Source: an uncultured Roseobacter sp. (GTDB lineage: Bacteria; Pseudomonadota; Alphaproteobacteria; Rhodobacterales; Rhodobacteraceae). From it: a DNA stretch of 64,000 nucleotides. The notes beneath the pieces were generated by a model, which was given only the letters and a program-made list of their open reading frames with translations, ran no database searches and was not told where the DNA came from. Both the position numbers and the translations under genes were made by a program. Shown here in pieces: positions 10,506 through 17,579 of this stretch (positions within the stretch are counted from its first letter, which is position 1; every line of letters starts with the position of its first letter). Where the stretch lies: contig CANKZM010000004.1 of the NCBI GenBank assembly GCA_947488305.1, positions 315,501 to 379,500 of the forward strand, in the 5' to 3' direction.

Positions 10506-11285
10506 TCAGGAGGGGGGCTTTTGGTTCAGTTTTTCTTCGATTGCCACAAGACGCGTCAGAACTTCATCGCGGTAAGCATCGGTCTGCTCCCCCGCTTCCT
10601 GCTGGTGCGCGTCCTGCATGGAGTTCACGATCAAGCCGACCAATAGGTTCACCACGGCAAAGGTCGTGACCATGATGAAGGGCACAAAGAAGGCCCAGGC
10701 ATAGGGGTAAACCTCCATCACCGGGCGTACGATTCCCATGGACCAGCTTTCCAGCGTCATGACCTGAAACAGCGTATAGCCACTTTGCGGCAGGGAGCCG
10801 AACCATTGCGGAAAGCTTGCCGCAAAGAGTTTCGTGGCGATCACGGAGCCGATATAAAAGATGATCGCCATCAGCAGAAAAACGCTGCCCATGCCGGGCA
10901 GGGCGGTCACAAAGCCTTCGACCACGCGGCGCAGCGACGGCGCGACCGAGATAACCCGCAAGACCCGCAGAATACGCAACGCCCGCAGCACGGACATGGT
11001 TTGGGATCCGGGCACCAGGGCCGCGCCCACGATCAGCACGTCAAAGATATTCCAGCCGCTGTGAAAGAACCGTTTGCCGCGCGCTACCAGCTTGAGGAAA
11101 ATCTCAACGACGAAAAACGCAAGGCAGGCCTTGTCCAGCGCGATAATCAAGCCGCCTGCTACACTCATGAGTTTCGGAGACGTCTCCATCCCCAGCAGAA
11201 CCGCGTTGAATATGATCACACCGATGACAAGATTGGTCACCCAGCGCTGGTCCAGCCAGACATCAAGCTTCTCTCTCATACCCAT
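10506..11285 (-). CDS. Bacterial voltage-gated sodium channel (NaChBac/BacNav family)
   Basis: This 259-aa single-domain ion channel has six predicted membrane segments. S4 carries arginines at every third position (R101, R104, R107, R110 in VLRALRILRVLRVIS). The selectivity filter TLESWS is at 177-182, matching NaChBac-family Na+ channels and not K+ channels. The C-terminus from about residue 228 is acidic and ends in a helix typical of the tetramerising coiled coil. I start at ATG 11285, with GGAGA 5 nt upstream; ATG 11279 is two codons in. It follows the RNA methyltransferase gene by 20 bp and is likely co-transcribed. A characterised homologue is NavSp1 of Silicibacter (Ruegeria) pomeroyi. 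Confidence 0.92.
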   Translation of the reverse strand: MGMREKLDVWLDQRWVTNLVIGVIIFNAVLLGMETSPKLMSVAGGLIIALDKACLAFFVVEIFLKLVARGKRFFHSGWNIFDVLIVGAALVPGSQTMSVLRALRILRVLRVISVAPSLRRVVEGFVTALPGMGSVFLLMAIIFYIGSVIATKLFAASFPQWFGSLPQSGYTLFQVMTLESWSMGIVRPVMEVYPYAWAFFVPFIMVTTFAVVNLLVGLIVNSMQDAHQQEAGEQTDAYRDEVLTRLVAIEEKLNQKPPS

Positions 11286-11305
11286 CGGGGTCTCCTCATT
11301 GCGAT

Positions 11306-12532
11306 TCAAGCCATATGGGGCGCGGTGAAGCAGGCCGCAAGCTCCACATGAGCCGACCAGCGGAATTGGTCTACCACCTGAACCCATTCCAAATCGTAAC
11401 CAGCAGCAACAAGAACCGCCGCATCGCGGGCGAAGGTAACCGGGTTGCACGAAACATAGGCGATGCGGGGTACATTCGACCCGACCAATTCAGCAACCTG
11501 CGCTTCGGCACCAGCGCGTGGCGGGTCGAGGACAACTGCCTCCGCCTTTGCCAGCTCGTCAGCCATCAGCGGGCGACGGAACAGATCGCGCGTCTCTGTG
11601 GTGACACTTTTGAGCCCCTCGCCGTGACGCCAACCAGCATCCAGGCTCATCAACATATCTGCCTCACCTTCGACGGCGTGAACCTCAGCCACCCGCGCCA
11701 ATGGCAAAGAAAACGTCCCGCACCCGGCAAAGAGGTCAATGATCTTTGACGCGCGCTTGGTGATTTCCTTGACTGAATCGGTCAGAACTTTCTCGCCATG
11801 GGCTGTTGCCTGAAGAAAGGACCCCGGTGGCGGCACAACTTCGATTCCGTCAAAGCTCTGGACCGGCGGATGGCGCAAGCCAATGACCTCATCCTCCCAC
11901 GTCAACCGCGCCAATCCTGCGGTCTCGCAAATTGCGGCCAGATGTTGACTCATCTGCCCATCAAGCGGTTTTCCGCCCCGCACAGCGACGTCCAACCCGG
12001 CCTTGCTGAGGGTGACCATGACCGACAGGGCGGTCTTGCGGCTGGCACCGATCATGGCGAGAGTTTCAGCGACGGAGGCACCTTCCCGCACGGCGGGGTC
12101 AAGCAACAGACAATCGGGGATCGGAACGATAGTGTCAGAGGCGCGCCCGTAAAACCCGACCATTGCACCCTTCTTGGTGCGACGCGCGGCAAAACCCGCA
12201 CGACGGCGCGCCTTCGCGGGCGATGTCTCTATGGTGCGGAAATGCGTCTCTAACCCGTGCGCGCTCAGCGCGTGCCGAACCACGTCAACTTTCCACTCAA
12301 CAACAAATTCATCGTCTGCATGCTGCAGCTGACAGCCGCCGCAGGACTTGTAATGCCTGCAAGGCGCCGCCACACGCCGGTCCGACGGTGTGATGATCCG
12401 GGCATCCAGCAGTGTCTGGCCTTCCAGCTTACCTGCGACCTGCTCGCCGGGCAGGGTCCGCGGTACGAACACCGGGCCATCCGCGATCCCGTCTCCATGC
12501 AGGCCCAGTCGTGTGATGCTAACTTCAGTCAT
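11306..12532 (-). CDS. RNA m5U methyltransferase of the TrmA/RlmC/RlmD family
   Basis: The 408-aa protein has an N-terminal TRAM-like segment, then a [4Fe-4S] cysteine set (C58, C64, C67 in CRHYKSCGGCQLQH, and C141). The C-terminal Rossmann domain shows DLFAGCGTFSLPLA, VLDPPRAGA and the catalytic SCNPVTFARD with its nucleophilic Cys. These motifs define uracil-5-methyltransferases acting on 23S rRNA (U747/U1939) or tRNA U54; the exact target is not deducible. It lies 38 bp after the ABC exporter pair and 20 bp before the sodium channel, so all four may share a transcript. Confidence 0.9.
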   Translation of the reverse strand: MTEVSITRLGLHGDGIADGPVFVPRTLPGEQVAGKLEGQTLLDARIITPSDRRVAAPCRHYKSCGGCQLQHADDEFVVEWKVDVVRHALSAHGLETHFRTIETSPAKARRRAGFAARRTKKGAMVGFYGRASDTIVPIPDCLLLDPAVREGASVAETLAMIGASRKTALSVMVTLSKAGLDVAVRGGKPLDGQMSQHLAAICETAGLARLTWEDEVIGLRHPPVQSFDGIEVVPPPGSFLQATAHGEKVLTDSVKEITKRASKIIDLFAGCGTFSLPLARVAEVHAVEGEADMLMSLDAGWRHGEGLKSVTTETRDLFRRPLMADELAKAEAVVLDPPRAGAEAQVAELVGSNVPRIAYVSCNPVTFARDAAVLVAAGYDLEWVQVVDQFRWSAHVELAACFTAPHMA

Positions 12533-12570: not shown

Positions 12571-14403
12571 TCACTCTGCCGCCTGCGTTCGGATAAACCC
12601 GCCAGACTGCCGATCCCAATACTGCGCGTACAGCCCGCCTTGCGCCAAAAGCTCTTCGTGGCTGCCATCTTCAACGATATGGCCATCGTCCATCACCACA
12701 ATACGGTCCATTTCAGTGAGCGTGGACAAACGATGCGCGATGGCCAGCACGGTCTTGCCGTCCATCACGCGTTCCAACGCGGTTTGGATCGCTGCTTCGA
12801 CCTCACTGTCGAGCGCGCTTGTCGCCTCGTCCAGCACAAGGATCGGCGCATCCTTGAGAATGGCGCGGGCCAAAGCGATCCGCTGCCGCTGCCCGCCGGA
12901 GAGCTTGACACCCCGCTCGCCAAGGTGCGCGTCATAACCCGTGCGCCCCTTATGGTCCTGCAAGGTTTCGATGAACTCATGTGCTTCGGCTTTCCGGGCC
13001 GCGGCGATCACCTCCGCCTCGGAGGCATCGGGACGACCGTAGAGGATATTGTCTCGCGCCGACCGGTTGAACATGGCTGTCTCTTGCGTGACCATACCGA
13101 TGTTGCGCCGCAGGCTTTCCTGCGTGACTACCCTGATATCGGTACCATCTATTAGAATTTCACCATTTTCCGCGTCATAGAGCCTGAGAAGCAGCGACAC
13201 GAGCGTCGATTTTCCAACGCCCGACGCGCCGACAATACCGAGCTTTTCACCCGGGTGAATGGTCAGGTTGATGTCTTGCACGCCGCCGACATCGCGGCCA
13301 TATGCGAAGTTTAAAGCGCGCATTTCGATCTCGCCACGCGGTACCTGCAAGGCTTGTGCGCCGGGATCGTCATCGACCCGGTTGCGGGGCGTCAGGGTAC
13401 GAATGCCATCTTCAATCTCGCCAATGTTGGCGTAGATTTGCATCAGCGTAAAACTCACCCATCCCGTCATCTGCGCGATACGGATCGCGACGGCACCCGC
13501 CGCCACGATATCGCCCTCGCTCGCCTGACCGGACTGCCAGAGCAGGATTGTGCCGCCGATCAGAACCACAGGCAAAATGCCTGCAAGTGACATCAACGCA
13601 AAGCGGAACCCCGCAGCAAGATAGCCAAAAGCCACAGCCCGTTGGCGGAAAACCTCCATTGCACCCAAGGCTGCACGGTCTTCGAACTCCGCATGTGCAA
13701 AGAGCTTTACCGTTTTGATATTAGTAATAGTATCAACAACCTGACCGGATACCATGGCCCTCGCACTGGCCCGCCCGGCAGACCGTTCGCGTACCCGGGG
13801 CAGAAACCAGTTGATCAGCGCAAAATACGCAATCAACCAGACGCCGAACCCGAGCGTCACTCGCCAATCGATTGCCAGTAACAACAACACCGAGCCAAAC
13901 AAGGAGGCCAGTGCGAAAGCCACTACGTTGATGATCTCCGACACCACATCTGTCACCGCCCGCGCCGCCTGCATCTGTTTTTGCGCAATCCGGCCCGCGA
14001 AATCATCATCAAAGAAACCAACCGTCTGACCCAAGGTCCAACGGTTGAGACGCGACAGCACCAGCGGATTCAGATTTGGCTGAACGATGATCGCGTTGGC
14101 CGATGCGGAAAGGCCAAATAGCACCGGACGCGCGAGCAGGAAGAACGCAACCGATCCAATCACGACCGTCAGATTCTGGGTGCTGAAGAACTGATCTGGC
14201 CCCAGATCTGCTGCGGCATCAATCACGAGGCCAAGGATCAGCGCCGTGCCGGCTTCCATGGCGCCAGCGAGCGCTGACAGAAAGCCGGCAAGAACCAATG
14301 CCGGCCACGACCCCGACAGACACCATCGCATGAACGCCCCGAGCTGTTGCGGCGGCGGCCCCTCGGCGGCGCGAAAGGCATCGATCCAGCTTTCAATCTT
14401 CAC
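12571..14403 (-). CDS. ABC exporter half-transporter (TMD-NBD fusion), second of a pair
   Basis: This 610-aa protein has a six-helix exporter membrane domain (residues about 30-330) and a C-terminal ATPase with Walker A GASGVGKST, signature LSGGQRQR, Walker B ILVLDEATS with catalytic Glu, and H-loop IAHRLST. The GTG start overlaps the upstream exporter stop as GTGA, so the two chains are made together and probably form a heterodimer. Both keep the catalytic Glu, unlike degenerate-site heterodimers such as TM287/288. Substrate is unknown; lipids and drugs are common for this class. Confidence 0.9.
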   Translation of the reverse strand: MKIESWIDAFRAAEGPPPQQLGAFMRWCLSGSWPALVLAGFLSALAGAMEAGTALILGLVIDAAADLGPDQFFSTQNLTVVIGSVAFFLLARPVLFGLSASANAIIVQPNLNPLVLSRLNRWTLGQTVGFFDDDFAGRIAQKQMQAARAVTDVVSEIINVVAFALASLFGSVLLLLAIDWRVTLGFGVWLIAYFALINWFLPRVRERSAGRASARAMVSGQVVDTITNIKTVKLFAHAEFEDRAALGAMEVFRQRAVAFGYLAAGFRFALMSLAGILPVVLIGGTILLWQSGQASEGDIVAAGAVAIRIAQMTGWVSFTLMQIYANIGEIEDGIRTLTPRNRVDDDPGAQALQVPRGEIEMRALNFAYGRDVGGVQDINLTIHPGEKLGIVGASGVGKSTLVSLLLRLYDAENGEILIDGTDIRVVTQESLRRNIGMVTQETAMFNRSARDNILYGRPDASEAEVIAAARKAEAHEFIETLQDHKGRTGYDAHLGERGVKLSGGQRQRIALARAILKDAPILVLDEATSALDSEVEAAIQTALERVMDGKTVLAIAHRLSTLTEMDRIVVMDDGHIVEDGSHEELLAQGGLYAQYWDRQSGGFIRTQAAE

Positions 14404-16238
14404 GCGTTTTCCTCAATGGTCAGGAACCCGCCTGACTGACGGGCCCAGAAGTCTGCATATAGTCCGCCTTTGGCCAAAAGCGCGTCATGCGGACCATCTT
14501 CGACAATCCGGCCCTGATCGAGCACCAGGATGCGGTCCATTTGGGCAATCGTAGAGAGCCGATGCGCAATCGCGATCACCGTTTTGCCTTCCATCATGCC
14601 GTATAGCGTATCCTGAATAGCGGCTTCCACCTCGCTATCGAGCGCGGAGGTTGCCTCATCCAGCAGCAGAATCGGTGCGTTTTTCAGGATCACACGCGCC
14701 AAGGTCACCCGCTGGCGCTGACCGCCTGAAAGCTTCACGCCCCGCTCACCCACATGGGCCTCATAGCCTTGCCGCCCTTCCGGGTCTTCAAGGTCCAGAA
14801 TGAACTCATGCGCCTGTGCCTGTTTGGCTGCCGCGATCATCTGCTCTTCGCTGGCATCGGGCCGTCCATAGAGCAGGTTGTCCCGCACCGATCGATGCAA
14901 CAAAGAGCTGTCTTGCTGAACCATACCGATGGCAAGCCGCAGACTGTCTTGTGTGACGTTGTTGATGTCCTGTCCGTCAATCATGATCTTGCCGTTTTCC
15001 GGATCGTAAAACCGCAAGAGCAGTTTGACCAAAGTCGATTTGCCGGCGCCGGAACGACCAACCAAACCCACCTTTTGACCCGGAGGGATCGTGAGGCTCA
15101 CGCGGTCAAGACCGCCGGACTTGCGCCCGTAGTGGTGGCTCAGCTCTTCCACCTCGATTTCGCCATTCATCAACTGCAAGGGTTTGGCCTGATCCGCATC
15201 CGTCAGGGTGATCGGCTGCGCAATGGTCCGCATACCTTCCTTGACCACACCCAATTCGCGGAAAAAACTGGTCAGCGCCCACATGATCCACCCGGTCATG
15301 GCGTTAAGCCGCAGCGTCAGGGCCGAGGCGGCCGCCACGACGCCCACGCTGGCGCTGCCCTGCATCCACAATAGGAACGCCCAGCCGACCACACCAACGA
15401 TCAGCAAACCGTTCAGCATGACCAGCGTGAAATCCATGATCGTGAAGATACGCATTTCTTTCAGAAACGTCTGGCGCGCCTGTTCAATGGCCTCTTTGGC
15501 GTAGTCGAGCTCCTTTTCATGATGCGCGAACATCTTGACCGAATGGATGTTGGTATAGGCATCTACCAGCCGCCCCGTCAGTTGCGAGCGCGCATCTGAC
15601 GCGGCCTCGGACGCCGGACCGACACGGGTGACGGTCCAATGCACAAGCCATCCGTAGAGCACAAACCAAACCAGCAACGGGATCAAAAGCCGCGGGTCAG
15701 AAATGCTCAGCAGGATCGCCGCACCAATAAAATAGGCAAGCGAGAAGGAGATCGCGTCGAATATCTGGAAAATAACCTCGCCGGCGGCGGCGGGCGCCTG
15801 CATGATCCGGTTTGCGATACGTCCGGCGAAATCATTCTCGAACCAACCGACGGATTGCCGAAGCACATGCCGGTGTGCCCGCCAGCGCATCAACATGCCA
15901 AAATTCGGCAGAATTGCATTGTTCAGGAGCAGCACATCAAGCGCCTGTATGACAGGACGCAAGAAGATGACGAACAATGCCATCAGGATGAATTCTAAAC
16001 CGTATTCCTGCCACACACGGGCCGGATCACCCTCCATCAGATCAACCACCCGTCCCATATAATAGATCAGCCCGACCTCGATCGCGGCGACAAGAATGGA
16101 CATGAGAGTGGCGAACAGGAAGAGTTTGCGGAACTGCTCAGCAAAGGACCACAGGAACGGCCAAAGCCGACGCGGTGGCGTGTCGGTCGTTGGATAGACC
16201 GCATAGGGGTCAATAAGGTTTTCAAAGAAGCGGAACAT
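14400..16238 (-). CDS. ABC exporter half-transporter (TMD-NBD fusion), first of a pair
   Basis: This 612-aa chain has an exporter membrane domain followed by an ATPase with Walker A GRSGAGKST, signature LSGGQRQR, Walker B ILLLDEATS and IAHRLST. It is similar to the next gene over its whole length, which suggests an old tandem duplication. AAGG lies 9 nt before the ATG. The leader upstream holds a miniature ORF and a terminator-like hairpin ending 27 nt before this gene, so expression may be attenuated. Two more genes (RNA methyltransferase, Na+ channel) follow on the same strand with short gaps. Confidence 0.9.
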   Translation of the reverse strand: MFRFFENLIDPYAVYPTTDTPPRRLWPFLWSFAEQFRKLFLFATLMSILVAAIEVGLIYYMGRVVDLMEGDPARVWQEYGLEFILMALFVIFLRPVIQALDVLLLNNAILPNFGMLMRWRAHRHVLRQSVGWFENDFAGRIANRIMQAPAAAGEVIFQIFDAISFSLAYFIGAAILLSISDPRLLIPLLVWFVLYGWLVHWTVTRVGPASEAASDARSQLTGRLVDAYTNIHSVKMFAHHEKELDYAKEAIEQARQTFLKEMRIFTIMDFTLVMLNGLLIVGVVGWAFLLWMQGSASVGVVAAASALTLRLNAMTGWIMWALTSFFRELGVVKEGMRTIAQPITLTDADQAKPLQLMNGEIEVEELSHHYGRKSGGLDRVSLTIPPGQKVGLVGRSGAGKSTLVKLLLRFYDPENGKIMIDGQDINNVTQDSLRLAIGMVQQDSSLLHRSVRDNLLYGRPDASEEQMIAAAKQAQAHEFILDLEDPEGRQGYEAHVGERGVKLSGGQRQRVTLARVILKNAPILLLDEATSALDSEVEAAIQDTLYGMMEGKTVIAIAHRLSTIAQMDRILVLDQGRIVEDGPHDALLAKGGLYADFWARQSGGFLTIEENA

Positions 16239-16264
16239 GGTCAGTGGCCTTGAGGTGGAATATC

Positions 16265-16296
16265 AAAAATGTCCGGACGCCAGTGGGGCTGTCCGG
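16265..16296 (-). terminator. Terminator-like hairpin in the leader of the ABC exporter operon
   Basis: On the minus strand CCGGAC (16291-16296) and GTCCGG (16273-16278) form a 6-bp outer stem. GCC/GGC adds 3 bp inside, with one bulged base, and the loop is CCACT. Three bases later comes a run of five T (16265-16269). The T-run ends 27 nt before the ATG at 16238, which leaves no room for a promoter. Segment ACAGCC of the 5' arm can instead pair with GGCTGT just after the mini-ORF stop (16312-16317). This is the arrangement expected of an attenuator. Confidence 0.6.
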
Positions 16297-16317
16297 CGGG
16301 GAAGGGTTATTACAGCC

Positions 16318-16344
16318 TCAGCTGTCCCAGATCCCGCGATACAT
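16318..16344 (-). CDS. Putative 8-codon leader peptide (MYRGIWDS) upstream of the ABC exporters
   Basis: A consensus GGAGGA (16352-16357) lies 7 nt before an ATG that opens eight codons, M-Y-R-G-I-W-D-S, then TGA. Its last codons (segment ACAGC, 16321-16325) can pair with GCTGT just after the stop (16312-16316). The same post-stop segment can alternatively pair with the 5' arm of the terminator hairpin. An in-frame ATG at 16365 would give a 15-residue version. The frame is open further upstream into the CCA gene, but without an ATG. This could also be coincidence, since only the ribosome-binding site and pairing support it. Confidence 0.45.
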   Translation of the reverse strand: MYRGIWDS

Positions 16345-16406
16345 TTTGTATTCCTCCATGTTCATATCGCTCAGGTAGCAGAAAACGGCCCCATCTGTCG
16401 AGGGGG

Positions 16407-17579
16407 TCAGCGACCTGTCATCAAATCTTCACGGCTGAGCGTGAAACCCGAACCGATCCAGAGCTGTTCCAATCGAGCAATTTCAGCGCCAAGTGCCTTG
16501 CCTTCAAAAGCGGGCATCAGATCGTTGGCCGTCACCGGGAACTTAGCCATCGCGGCCGTCTCGATCTCACGAACCTCGGCGCGGGACGGCGGCATCGCAG
16601 CAAGTGCGGCCCGAAGCGCCGCCGCCGATTTCGCGAGCTCCGATCCCTTACGGTACGCCACTTCCGGCAGGGGTTGTGCGCTATATCCCGCCTCCACGAG
16701 ATCGCTCAGACGGCGCGCATCATTCCGGCTGAGACGCAGACGATCCGGGACATCCTCTCCACCCAAGGCGGCGAGACGCAGCATCGGATCCGGCGGCAAA
16801 CCCAACCATGAGGCGATCGCGACTGTCGGTGCCAGAAAGCGATCATCACTGCCGGGCAGAACCCGCAATAGGCACCCGGTCTGGCGCATTGCTGCGACGG
16901 CGGCGGAGGGGTCCTCGGCGGCCAACAGTTTTATCATTTCAGCGCCGGTTCTTTCCGCCGAAAGCGTCTCTAACCCGTTGGTATTTCGCGAAATAGCGTC
17001 GAGTGCATCCACCTCGAACCCTTCATCCGGGTCGGCGTAGGTGGCATGAAATCGAAAAAACCGCAGAATTCGCAAGTAGTCTTCGCGGATGCGCCGGTCT
17101 GCATCTTCGATAAACCGAATGCGCCGCTTGAGACAGTCTTGGTATCCAGTGCCCAGCGGATCAATGACCTGACCTTCTGGCGTTGCATAAAGTGCATTGA
17201 GCGTGAAATCGCGGCGGCGTGCATCTTCGGCCATGTCTTTGGAAAAAGTAACAACTGCGCGGCGCCCATCCGTTTCCACATCGCGGCGAAAACTCGTGAC
17301 CTCGAAACCTTTTCCATTCACGACCACGGTTACCGTGCCATGTTCAATCCCTGTCGGCACCGCTTTGAACCCAGCGGCTTCGGCACGCTCCGTCACCAGG
17401 TCCGGGGGCAAGGGCGTCGCAAGATCCACGTCGGAACCGCCTTGGTCCAACAGCGCGTCCCGAACGCAGCCCCCAACGAAAAAAACGGACCCGCCCAGCG
17501 CATGCGCCAAAGATTGCGCATCGGAATCCTTCAGCCACGCTGTCTCAGGCGGCAGAGTTATGTCATCTGGTCGGTCCAT
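16407..17579 (-). CDS. cca: CCA tRNA nucleotidyltransferase
   Basis: This 390-aa class II enzyme adds or repairs the 3' CCA of tRNAs. The catalytic head is visible: FFVGGCVRDALL, then SDVDLATPL with the metal-binding DxD, followed by GTVTVVVNGKGFEVTSFRRD (quoted in part) and RRRDFTLNALYA. The RNA/protein recognition EDYLRILRFFRFHATY is also present. I start at ATG 17579 (MDRPDDITLPP). The longer open frame reaches 17663 but overlaps the NUDIX gene more deeply. The start lies 22 bp inside the preceding nudL gene, so translation is probably coupled. Confidence 0.93.
   Translation of the reverse strand: MDRPDDITLPPETAWLKDSDAQSLAHALGGSVFFVGGCVRDALLDQGGSDVDLATPLPPDLVTERAEAAGFKAVPTGIEHGTVTVVVNGKGFEVTSFRRDVETDGRRAVVTFSKDMAEDARRRDFTLNALYATPEGQVIDPLGTGYQDCLKRRIRFIEDADRRIREDYLRILRFFRFHATYADPDEGFEVDALDAISRNTNGLETLSAERTGAEMIKLLAAEDPSAAVAAMRQTGCLLRVLPGSDDRFLAPTVAIASWLGLPPDPMLRLAALGGEDVPDRLRLSRNDARRLSDLVEAGYSAQPLPEVAYRKGSELAKSAAALRAALAAMPPSRAEVREIETAAMAKFPVTANDLMPAFEGKALGAEIARLEQLWIGSGFTLSREDLMTGR

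Follow-up and report, generated by a model that had tools for sequence, protein, structure and literature searches.

The DNA analysed here, called the window, is a stretch of 64,000 nucleotides from an uncultured Roseobacter sp., and all genes and features discussed below lie on its minus strand. A gene for a CCA-type nucleotidyltransferase (PolyA_pol domains by Pfam) ends at 16407 and is followed by the genes for two ABC exporter subunits. Subunit 1 (14400..16238; Pfam ABC_tran and ABC_membrane) is the putative controlled gene and is taken as ABCB type, its best-scoring solved chains being ABCB exporters; subunit 2 occupies 12571..14403 (Pfam). Behind them lie genes for an RNA (uracil-5)-methyltransferase family protein (11306..12532; PF05958) and for an ion channel (10506..11450 as the longest ORF, with the PF00520 domain at 10509-11282). 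When 8-kb loci were searched by tblastn, the nucleotidyltransferase gene was found in 51 of the 58 loci with enough upstream sequence, and the methyltransferase and the channel in 22/24 and 12/21 loci, respectively, with enough downstream sequence. An earlier note on this DNA had named exporter, RNA methyltransferase and channel as one gene set, and these counts agree with it.

Between the nucleotidyltransferase and the exporter, the same note had described a leader with a short ORF and four segments, of which 1:2 and 3:4 would pair in a terminated state and 2:3 in an antiterminated one. Every element that it named is present where it was placed. The Shine-Dalgarno sequence (SD) GGAGGA, read from the sequence at 16352..16357, is followed after 7 nt by an ATG (16344-16342) that opens the leader ORF ATGTATCGCGGGATCTGGGACAGCTGA (16318..16344), which has 8 codons and encodes MYRGIWDS-stop. 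Segment 1 is ACAGC (16325-16321) in the last leader codons, segment 2 is GCTGT (16316-16312), segment 3 is ACAGCC (16292-16287) and segment 4 is GGCGTCCGG (16281-16273). The hairpin of segments 3 and 4 had been described as followed by five T; the T-run is there (16269-16265), but it does not follow immediately, three bases (ACA) intervening. In the window's own genome one match to the leader peptide pattern was found with up to 2 mismatches allowed. Seven codons 5' of the leader start there is another ATG in frame, with no clear Shine-Dalgarno site (MNMEEYK-MYRGIWDS; 16365-16345 in the window), and such upstream extensions of the leader ORF are frequent in the window's genus.

The leader ORF in related genomes

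The exporter N-terminus was searched in 19 genomes of the window's genus and in 198 genomes of the family, one per genus. We took 148 upstream regions, 19 from the genus and 129 from the family, the latter drawn from 149 matching genomes besides the window's own, with mostly the weakest matches left out. A further search at the level of the order yielded genomes of the same family only, and the loci compared are all within that family. A candidate ORF was found in 78 loci; L088, L121, L129, L130, L152 and L153 were dropped by eye, and L136, L154 and L155 were dropped later for an unclear leader or exporter start. With seven extra ORFs in kept loci removed, 69 loci remained. Together with 74 loci obtained by pattern matching they made 143, of which 100 were retained at below 85% identity and 99 had flank enough for folding. 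These 99 leaders comprise 72 of class I and 27 of class II, the two kinds described below; L183, which has its leader upstream of this exporter, is outside these counts.

In the window's genus, all 19 genomes have the ORF M[YNF]RGIWxx-stop, 103-111 nt 5' of the same ABC exporter; in one of them GTG instead of ATG opens it. A strict rule (ATG at -98..-130 from the exporter, strong SD, 7-12 codons) holds for 18 of the 19 genus loci and for 49 of the 129 loci of other family genera, against 0.1 expected from dinucleotide shuffles in each set; it fails in the other 80 family orthologs of the exporter. The mini-ORF with its Shine-Dalgarno site, proposed at first from the window alone, is by this comparison of sequences real and conserved in orthologous leaders (19/19 in the genus, 49/129 in the family). 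In the leaderless orthologs L126, L127, L131, L140 and L148, little sequence separates the exporter from the gene upstream, and near the exporter start codon there is a different promoter-like motif (TTTCC.. then CTATAT).

Two kinds of leader occupy the same place in other genera. In class I the peptide is MYxG[IL]W with 2-4 residues added; class II encodes differing peptides of 8-11 codons, for example MNNGMHRPLV, MIYRIRTALV and MYRDRTPISFA; the motif MYxG[IL]W is kept in class I, which outside the genus is defined by that motif, and is not kept in class II. The class I ORF was also found in 17 of 19 further loci, which lie outside the set-up data and are partly close relatives. GGAGG is present in 88 of the 99 leaders. 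Their ORFs have 8 residues in 49 cases, 9 in 3, 10 in 41 and 11 in 6; a length of 9 is thus rare beside 8 and 10-11. A collection-wide DNA pattern, GGAGG-N6..9-ATGTAYNNCGGGATYTGG, matched at least 117 stretches; among the 80 matches listed, 75 lie directly 5' of this exporter, 3 are cut off by the locus edge, and L208 and L234 are chance matches in records of other phyla. Phaeobacter and Ruegeria are among the genera with records in which the leader occurs.

A predicted promoter, TCGACA - 17 nt - CTACCT (16373..16401), was located by motif comparison just past the stop codon of the nucleotidyltransferase gene, and transcription is expected to start near 16366. The motif xGAC(A/T)-N16..18-xTAnnn, common to both leader classes, occurs 25-85 nt 5' of the ORF in 90 of the 99 leaders against 3.8 expected from mononucleotide shuffling, a comparison in which the motif was derived from the very sequences scored. 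Its -10 part in the window is poor, and a sigma-70 consensus scan of the window listed no promoter at 16373..16401. With this circularity and the negative sigma-70 scan in mind, we treat the motif as strongly conserved but unproven as a promoter.

Long-range and inner helices

RNAalifold on MAFFT alignments of classes I and II gave no structure, and the 3' parts of these alignments do not align. We used partner swapping instead, in which the pairing energy of a pair of scan windows within a species is compared with that obtained after swapping the partners between species; the scans assumed no structure. Among 26 leaders less than 68% identical, 46 of 1,598 window pairs had z below -3 and 2 had z above +3, on a scale inflated by shared ancestry (taken over every window pair, z has a spread of 1.2-1.7 instead of 1). 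The top pair was P0 (s-18:t-6, z -6.1), followed by A:B (-5.3), s1:s2 (-4.8), P3 (s2:s3, -4.5) and P1 (leader start with t-42, -4.4). Larger leader sets agree: P1 reached z -9.4 in class I and -6.2 in class II. The class I scan, which also gave P3 at z -5.9, used the first 60 of 73 loci, and the class II alignment, A2, holds 22 of the 27 leaders, L082, L146, L162, L163 and L167 being omitted as hard to align.

P0, found both by the scan and in the minimum free energy (MFE) fold of the window, joins GAACATGG (16356..16363), which overlaps the leader SD, to CCATGTTC (16233..16240), which holds the exporter start codon (16238-16236). A P0 helix of at least 6 bp is found in 65 of the 99 leaders, compared with 42% of swapped pairs, and 42 of these 65 helices touch the exporter ATG; within the genus alone, covariation of P0 is not significant. 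P1, taken from the genus alignment, joins GGAATACAAAATGT (16341..16354), containing the leader start codon, to ACATTTTTGATATTCC (16257..16272), which includes the five T that had been read as a terminator tail. In that alignment 93.6% of the P1 cells are paired, with double changes at 4 of 9 pairs, and in L010 a GTG leader start is matched by CAC instead of CAT in the P1 partner.

Swapping the 5' part of the leader between species reduced pairing of the leader ribosome-binding site with the exporter region to 0.51, from 0.75 in own sequences, which scored higher in 90 of the 99 leaders; it weakened the fold in 81 of 99. The exporter ATG was paired with anything at 0.63 in own sequences, barely above 0.56 in chimeras. 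Pairing of the ATG with the leader was 0.48 in own class I sequences and 0.30 in chimeras (p 0.002), the excess in class II was not significant (p 0.18), and the lock on the ATG was higher in own than in chimera for 57 of the 99 leaders. In these swap tests, the exporter start used for L134 and a few others, which match from residue 2, lay slightly downstream of the true one. The ATG shows a small excess over chimeras, one that in class II lacks significance; the evidence for locking is hence better for the leader ribosome-binding site than for the exporter ATG. The pairing predicted to hide the downstream start region (P0/P1) is, by these comparisons, conserved, more weakly for the exporter ATG than for the leader ribosome-binding site.

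P2 and P3 correspond to the 1:2 and 3:4 pairings of the earlier note, both of which find support in the genus. P2, seen in the genus alignment, joins segment 1 (16321..16325) to segment 2 (16312..16316) and has double changes at 4 of 5 pairs, with 70.5% of cells paired. P3 has its 5' arm CCGGAC at 16291..16296, overlapping segment 3 and identified in the class I scan, and its 3' arm GTCCGG at 16273..16278, within segment 4 and found by the scan and the genus alignment; double changes occur at 2 of 5 pairs. The 2:3 antiterminator fared differently: in 19 genus loci the scan windows holding segments 2 and 3 gave -7.44 kcal/mol with their own partners and -7.65 kcal/mol with swapped ones (z +0.5).

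The scan also pointed to two further pairings. A:B joins leader codons 2-4 to sequence past the stop codon and has double changes at 5 of 7 pairs in class II; it is strong in class II and weaker in class I, and in the genus there was no signal for it (z +0.5). The s1:s2 helix joins the stop region to e+21, is exclusive with P3 and covaries in other genera. The arrangement of A:B, s1:s2 and P3 in class II could be a three-way switch. In class II leaders such as L109 (L109:367-503), the spacing of A:B and s1:s2 is that of an H-type pseudoknot (about 7 bp, 1 nt, 8 nt and 6 bp in L109), and s2 is shared with hairpin P3. A small hairpin, GCTC-N4..8-GGAGC, can be drawn around the exporter SD in many genera (L056, L058, L097, L145 and others); it is frequent by eye but gave no covariation (z +0.1, +2.3 and +0.8) and was set aside. 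Over the family as a whole, comparison of the leaders bears out as sequence features the ORF with its SD, the helices and the motif resembling a promoter.

Predicted effect of ribosome occupancy of the leader

Without constraints, the MFE fold of the window is a closed form in which P0 (GAACATGG:CCATGTTC) makes 8 bp, including the exporter ATG. The helices GGAATA:TATTCC and AAAATGT:ACATTTT are also present and enclose P2 and P3, and the T-run at 16269-16265 sits within P1. The predicted probability of pairing between exporter ATG and leader is 0.998-0.999 in the window for five assumed transcription starts. When the folded sequence stopped short of the exporter ATG, the gain in stability over shuffles was only moderate (z -1.85).

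Masking the leader start in the window gave an accessibility of the exporter ATG of 0.54 for transcripts starting at 16367 or later, and of 0.27 and 0.34 for the longer 5' ends 16374 and 16370; with the stop region masked it stayed at 0.00. Across species, the start mask raised accessibility of the exporter start from 0.33 to 0.48 in class I (up in 40 and down in 16 of 72) and from 0.36 to 0.56 in class II (up in 14 and down in 7 of 27), and the stop mask gave no rise. Masking codons 4-5 had hardly any effect on the exporter start (0.35 in both classes), and the folding thus fails to reproduce stalling within the ORF as the signal. When a mask was placed 5' of the SD as a control (s-28..s-16), the start became accessible to much the same extent as with an initiating ribosome (0.46 and 0.47), because P0 extends there. 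As structures in the folding model, a closed form, presumed off, and an open form with a ribosome at the leader start, presumed on, are both obtained.

The mechanism that we propose is as follows. A leader transcript, probably from its own promoter, would begin with a strong ribosome-binding site and the 8-codon ORF. With some 110 nt more transcribed, the leader SD and start region would pair with sequence that runs up to and over the exporter start codon (P0 and P1), enclosing the P2 and P3 hairpins, and in this closed form neither start site would be free. A ribosome that initiates on the leader ORF, or is held at its beginning, would stop P0 and P1 from claiming their 5' strands and leave the exporter start exposed; a ribosome already at the leader stop codon would not expose it. 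Since occupancy of the leader start would open the exporter start, slow or arrested initiation on the leader should raise exporter translation. Repression by the closed form, its opening by leader occupancy and the putative trigger, a stress on ribosomes, are inferred. Whether the exporter is made is probably decided by ribosomes on the leader ORF, and we think it likely, with some reserve, that the element is a translational attenuator with a logic like that of toiL-topAI or erm, opened by ribosomes at the leader start.

What happens behind the lock could be more elaborate. Blocked translation might allow Rho to terminate the untranslated RNA inside the exporter gene, as at toiL-topAI, whose lock and uORF logic are the same in the portion of the report available to us (PMC12121999). 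Such an output would refine translational attenuation; it is compatible with our results and fits them equally well, but the sequence reads the same for a Rho output as for pure translational control. We regard it as possible, if rather doubtful.

Another question is whether any signal is read at all. The leader ORF may be a constitutive device for ribosome loading or coupling, in which the lock sets the ratio of leader to exporter translation. The class II peptides share no clear sequence, so that no sequence-specific arrest is needed, and many orthologs have no leader (80/129 family loci fail the strict rule), as might be expected of such a device. The alternative inner helices A:B, s1:s2 and P3 covary, however, which suits a switch, and we consider the constitutive device unlikely. 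Peptide arrest alone was set aside as an explanation that is not needed, since the class II peptides differ.

Possible termination and related systems

The earlier note had placed the output in transcription: ribosome-mediated attenuation of the trp or BmrB type, with 3:4 and the T-run as intrinsic terminator and 2:3 as antiterminator. The window does have a hairpin plus five T, 1:2 and 3:4 covary, and the covariation of s1:s2 in other genera would provide a helix exclusive with P3; BmrB is described as controlling another heterodimeric ABC exporter in this way in the part of PMC4191407 consulted. The T-run, however, is not conserved, most relatives having CATTTCG... in its place, and it is accounted for as the 3' strand of the covarying P1; the 2:3 pairing is unsupported in the genus. 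Where 6 T of 8 were required, terminator-like sites were about as frequent as in shuffles in either class (class I 9/72 against 9.1; class II 2/27 against 2.6). With 5 T of 8, class I lies above shuffles, in favour of a terminator (43/72 against 28.0, sd 4.3), and class II is at shuffle level (11/27 against 10.2); with 4 T of 8 the counts are 64/72 against 53.1 and 20/27 against 19.9. The stretch 20-35 nt 5' of the exporter start is U-rich and could produce the class I excess. A consensus terminator scan listed none at 16297-16265, its loop limit of 8 being such that it would miss this 12-nt loop. Judged on the 99 leaders and their shuffles, an intrinsic terminator is mostly rejected, with the class I excess at 4-5 T of 8 remaining, and we hold transcription attenuation to be quite improbable. 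The earlier idea of a translated-leader attenuator before the exporter thus survives as to its kind, since the ORF, its SD and the 1:2 and 3:4 pairings are conserved, but not as to its output through a terminator and the 2:3 pairing. A metabolite riboswitch or other structured RNA with an accidental ORF would agree with the strong structure and with an architecture common to both classes, but the SD, start, stop and ORF length are kept and the presumed core sequence is not, and Rfam covariance models gave no match (window 15800-16900 at E up to 5; 20 related loci at the gathering threshold), which makes it very improbable indeed.

For the translational attenuator that we prefer, several known systems offer comparison. 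In the erm and cat translation attenuators, a short leader peptide precedes a downstream start hidden by RNA, the position of the ribosome acts as the sensor, and arrest at inner codons frees the downstream start; the folding results here favour occupancy of the leader start, not of inner codons. Trp-type attenuators have mutually exclusive pairings behind a leader ORF; unlike these, the present leader has no run of regulatory codons and no conserved terminator. The nearest described logic, by analogy, appears to be that of toiL of E. coli topAI-yjhQP. In the available part of its description, toiL is a short uORF whose region takes part in long-range pairing with the ribosome-binding site downstream; the proposal is that this pairing is opened by a ribosome at the start of the uORF and that tetracycline holds ribosomes there; ermB and ermC are named in the same text (PMC12121999). 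As far as that text goes, the present element differs in gene and sequence; its uORF SD is itself a partner of the exporter start region, its peptides fall into two classes across a family, and its inner helices form alternatives.

BmrB-bmrCD of Bacillus subtilis likewise has a leader peptide before a two-gene ABC exporter; according to the part of the report at hand, that leader has 53 codons with an intrinsic terminator inside (PMC4191407), whereas here there are 8 codons, no conserved terminator and an output that is apparently translational. In the portion available of a report on mgtQ, which precedes mgtB in Salmonella, a small ORF and alternative stem-loops promote transporter translation in response to a different trigger, and pairing between two ribosome-binding sites is not mentioned in that portion (PMC8092293). 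The bacteria studied here are not named in the accessible part of PMC4833913, which deals with leader genes. A literature search found no description of the element, as judged by titles and the beginnings of abstracts and with subscription journals mostly outside its scope, and MYRGIW, MYYGIW, YYGIWF and YRGIWF occur in no paper of the literature searched.

More tentatively, and with somewhat less than even confidence, we suggest a family-wide RNA with two mutually antisense ribosome-binding sites, in which initiation at each would open the other. Inside it, the pairing of leader codons with sequence past the stop and the pairing across the stop would form an H-type pseudoknot competing with P3, a switch that might read the position of a ribosome on 8-11 codons without a given peptide. 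If the proposed mechanism is right, a family of marine bacteria would gain ribosome-sensing control of an ABCB-type exporter. A leader that keeps its ORF length and RNA partners, but in class II not its peptide, would also separate the sensing of ribosome position from that of the nascent peptide. Among the 59 class I loci that were not picked with the DNA pattern, 58 have GGG as the codon for Gly-4, which points to codon choice or to pairing of the RNA.
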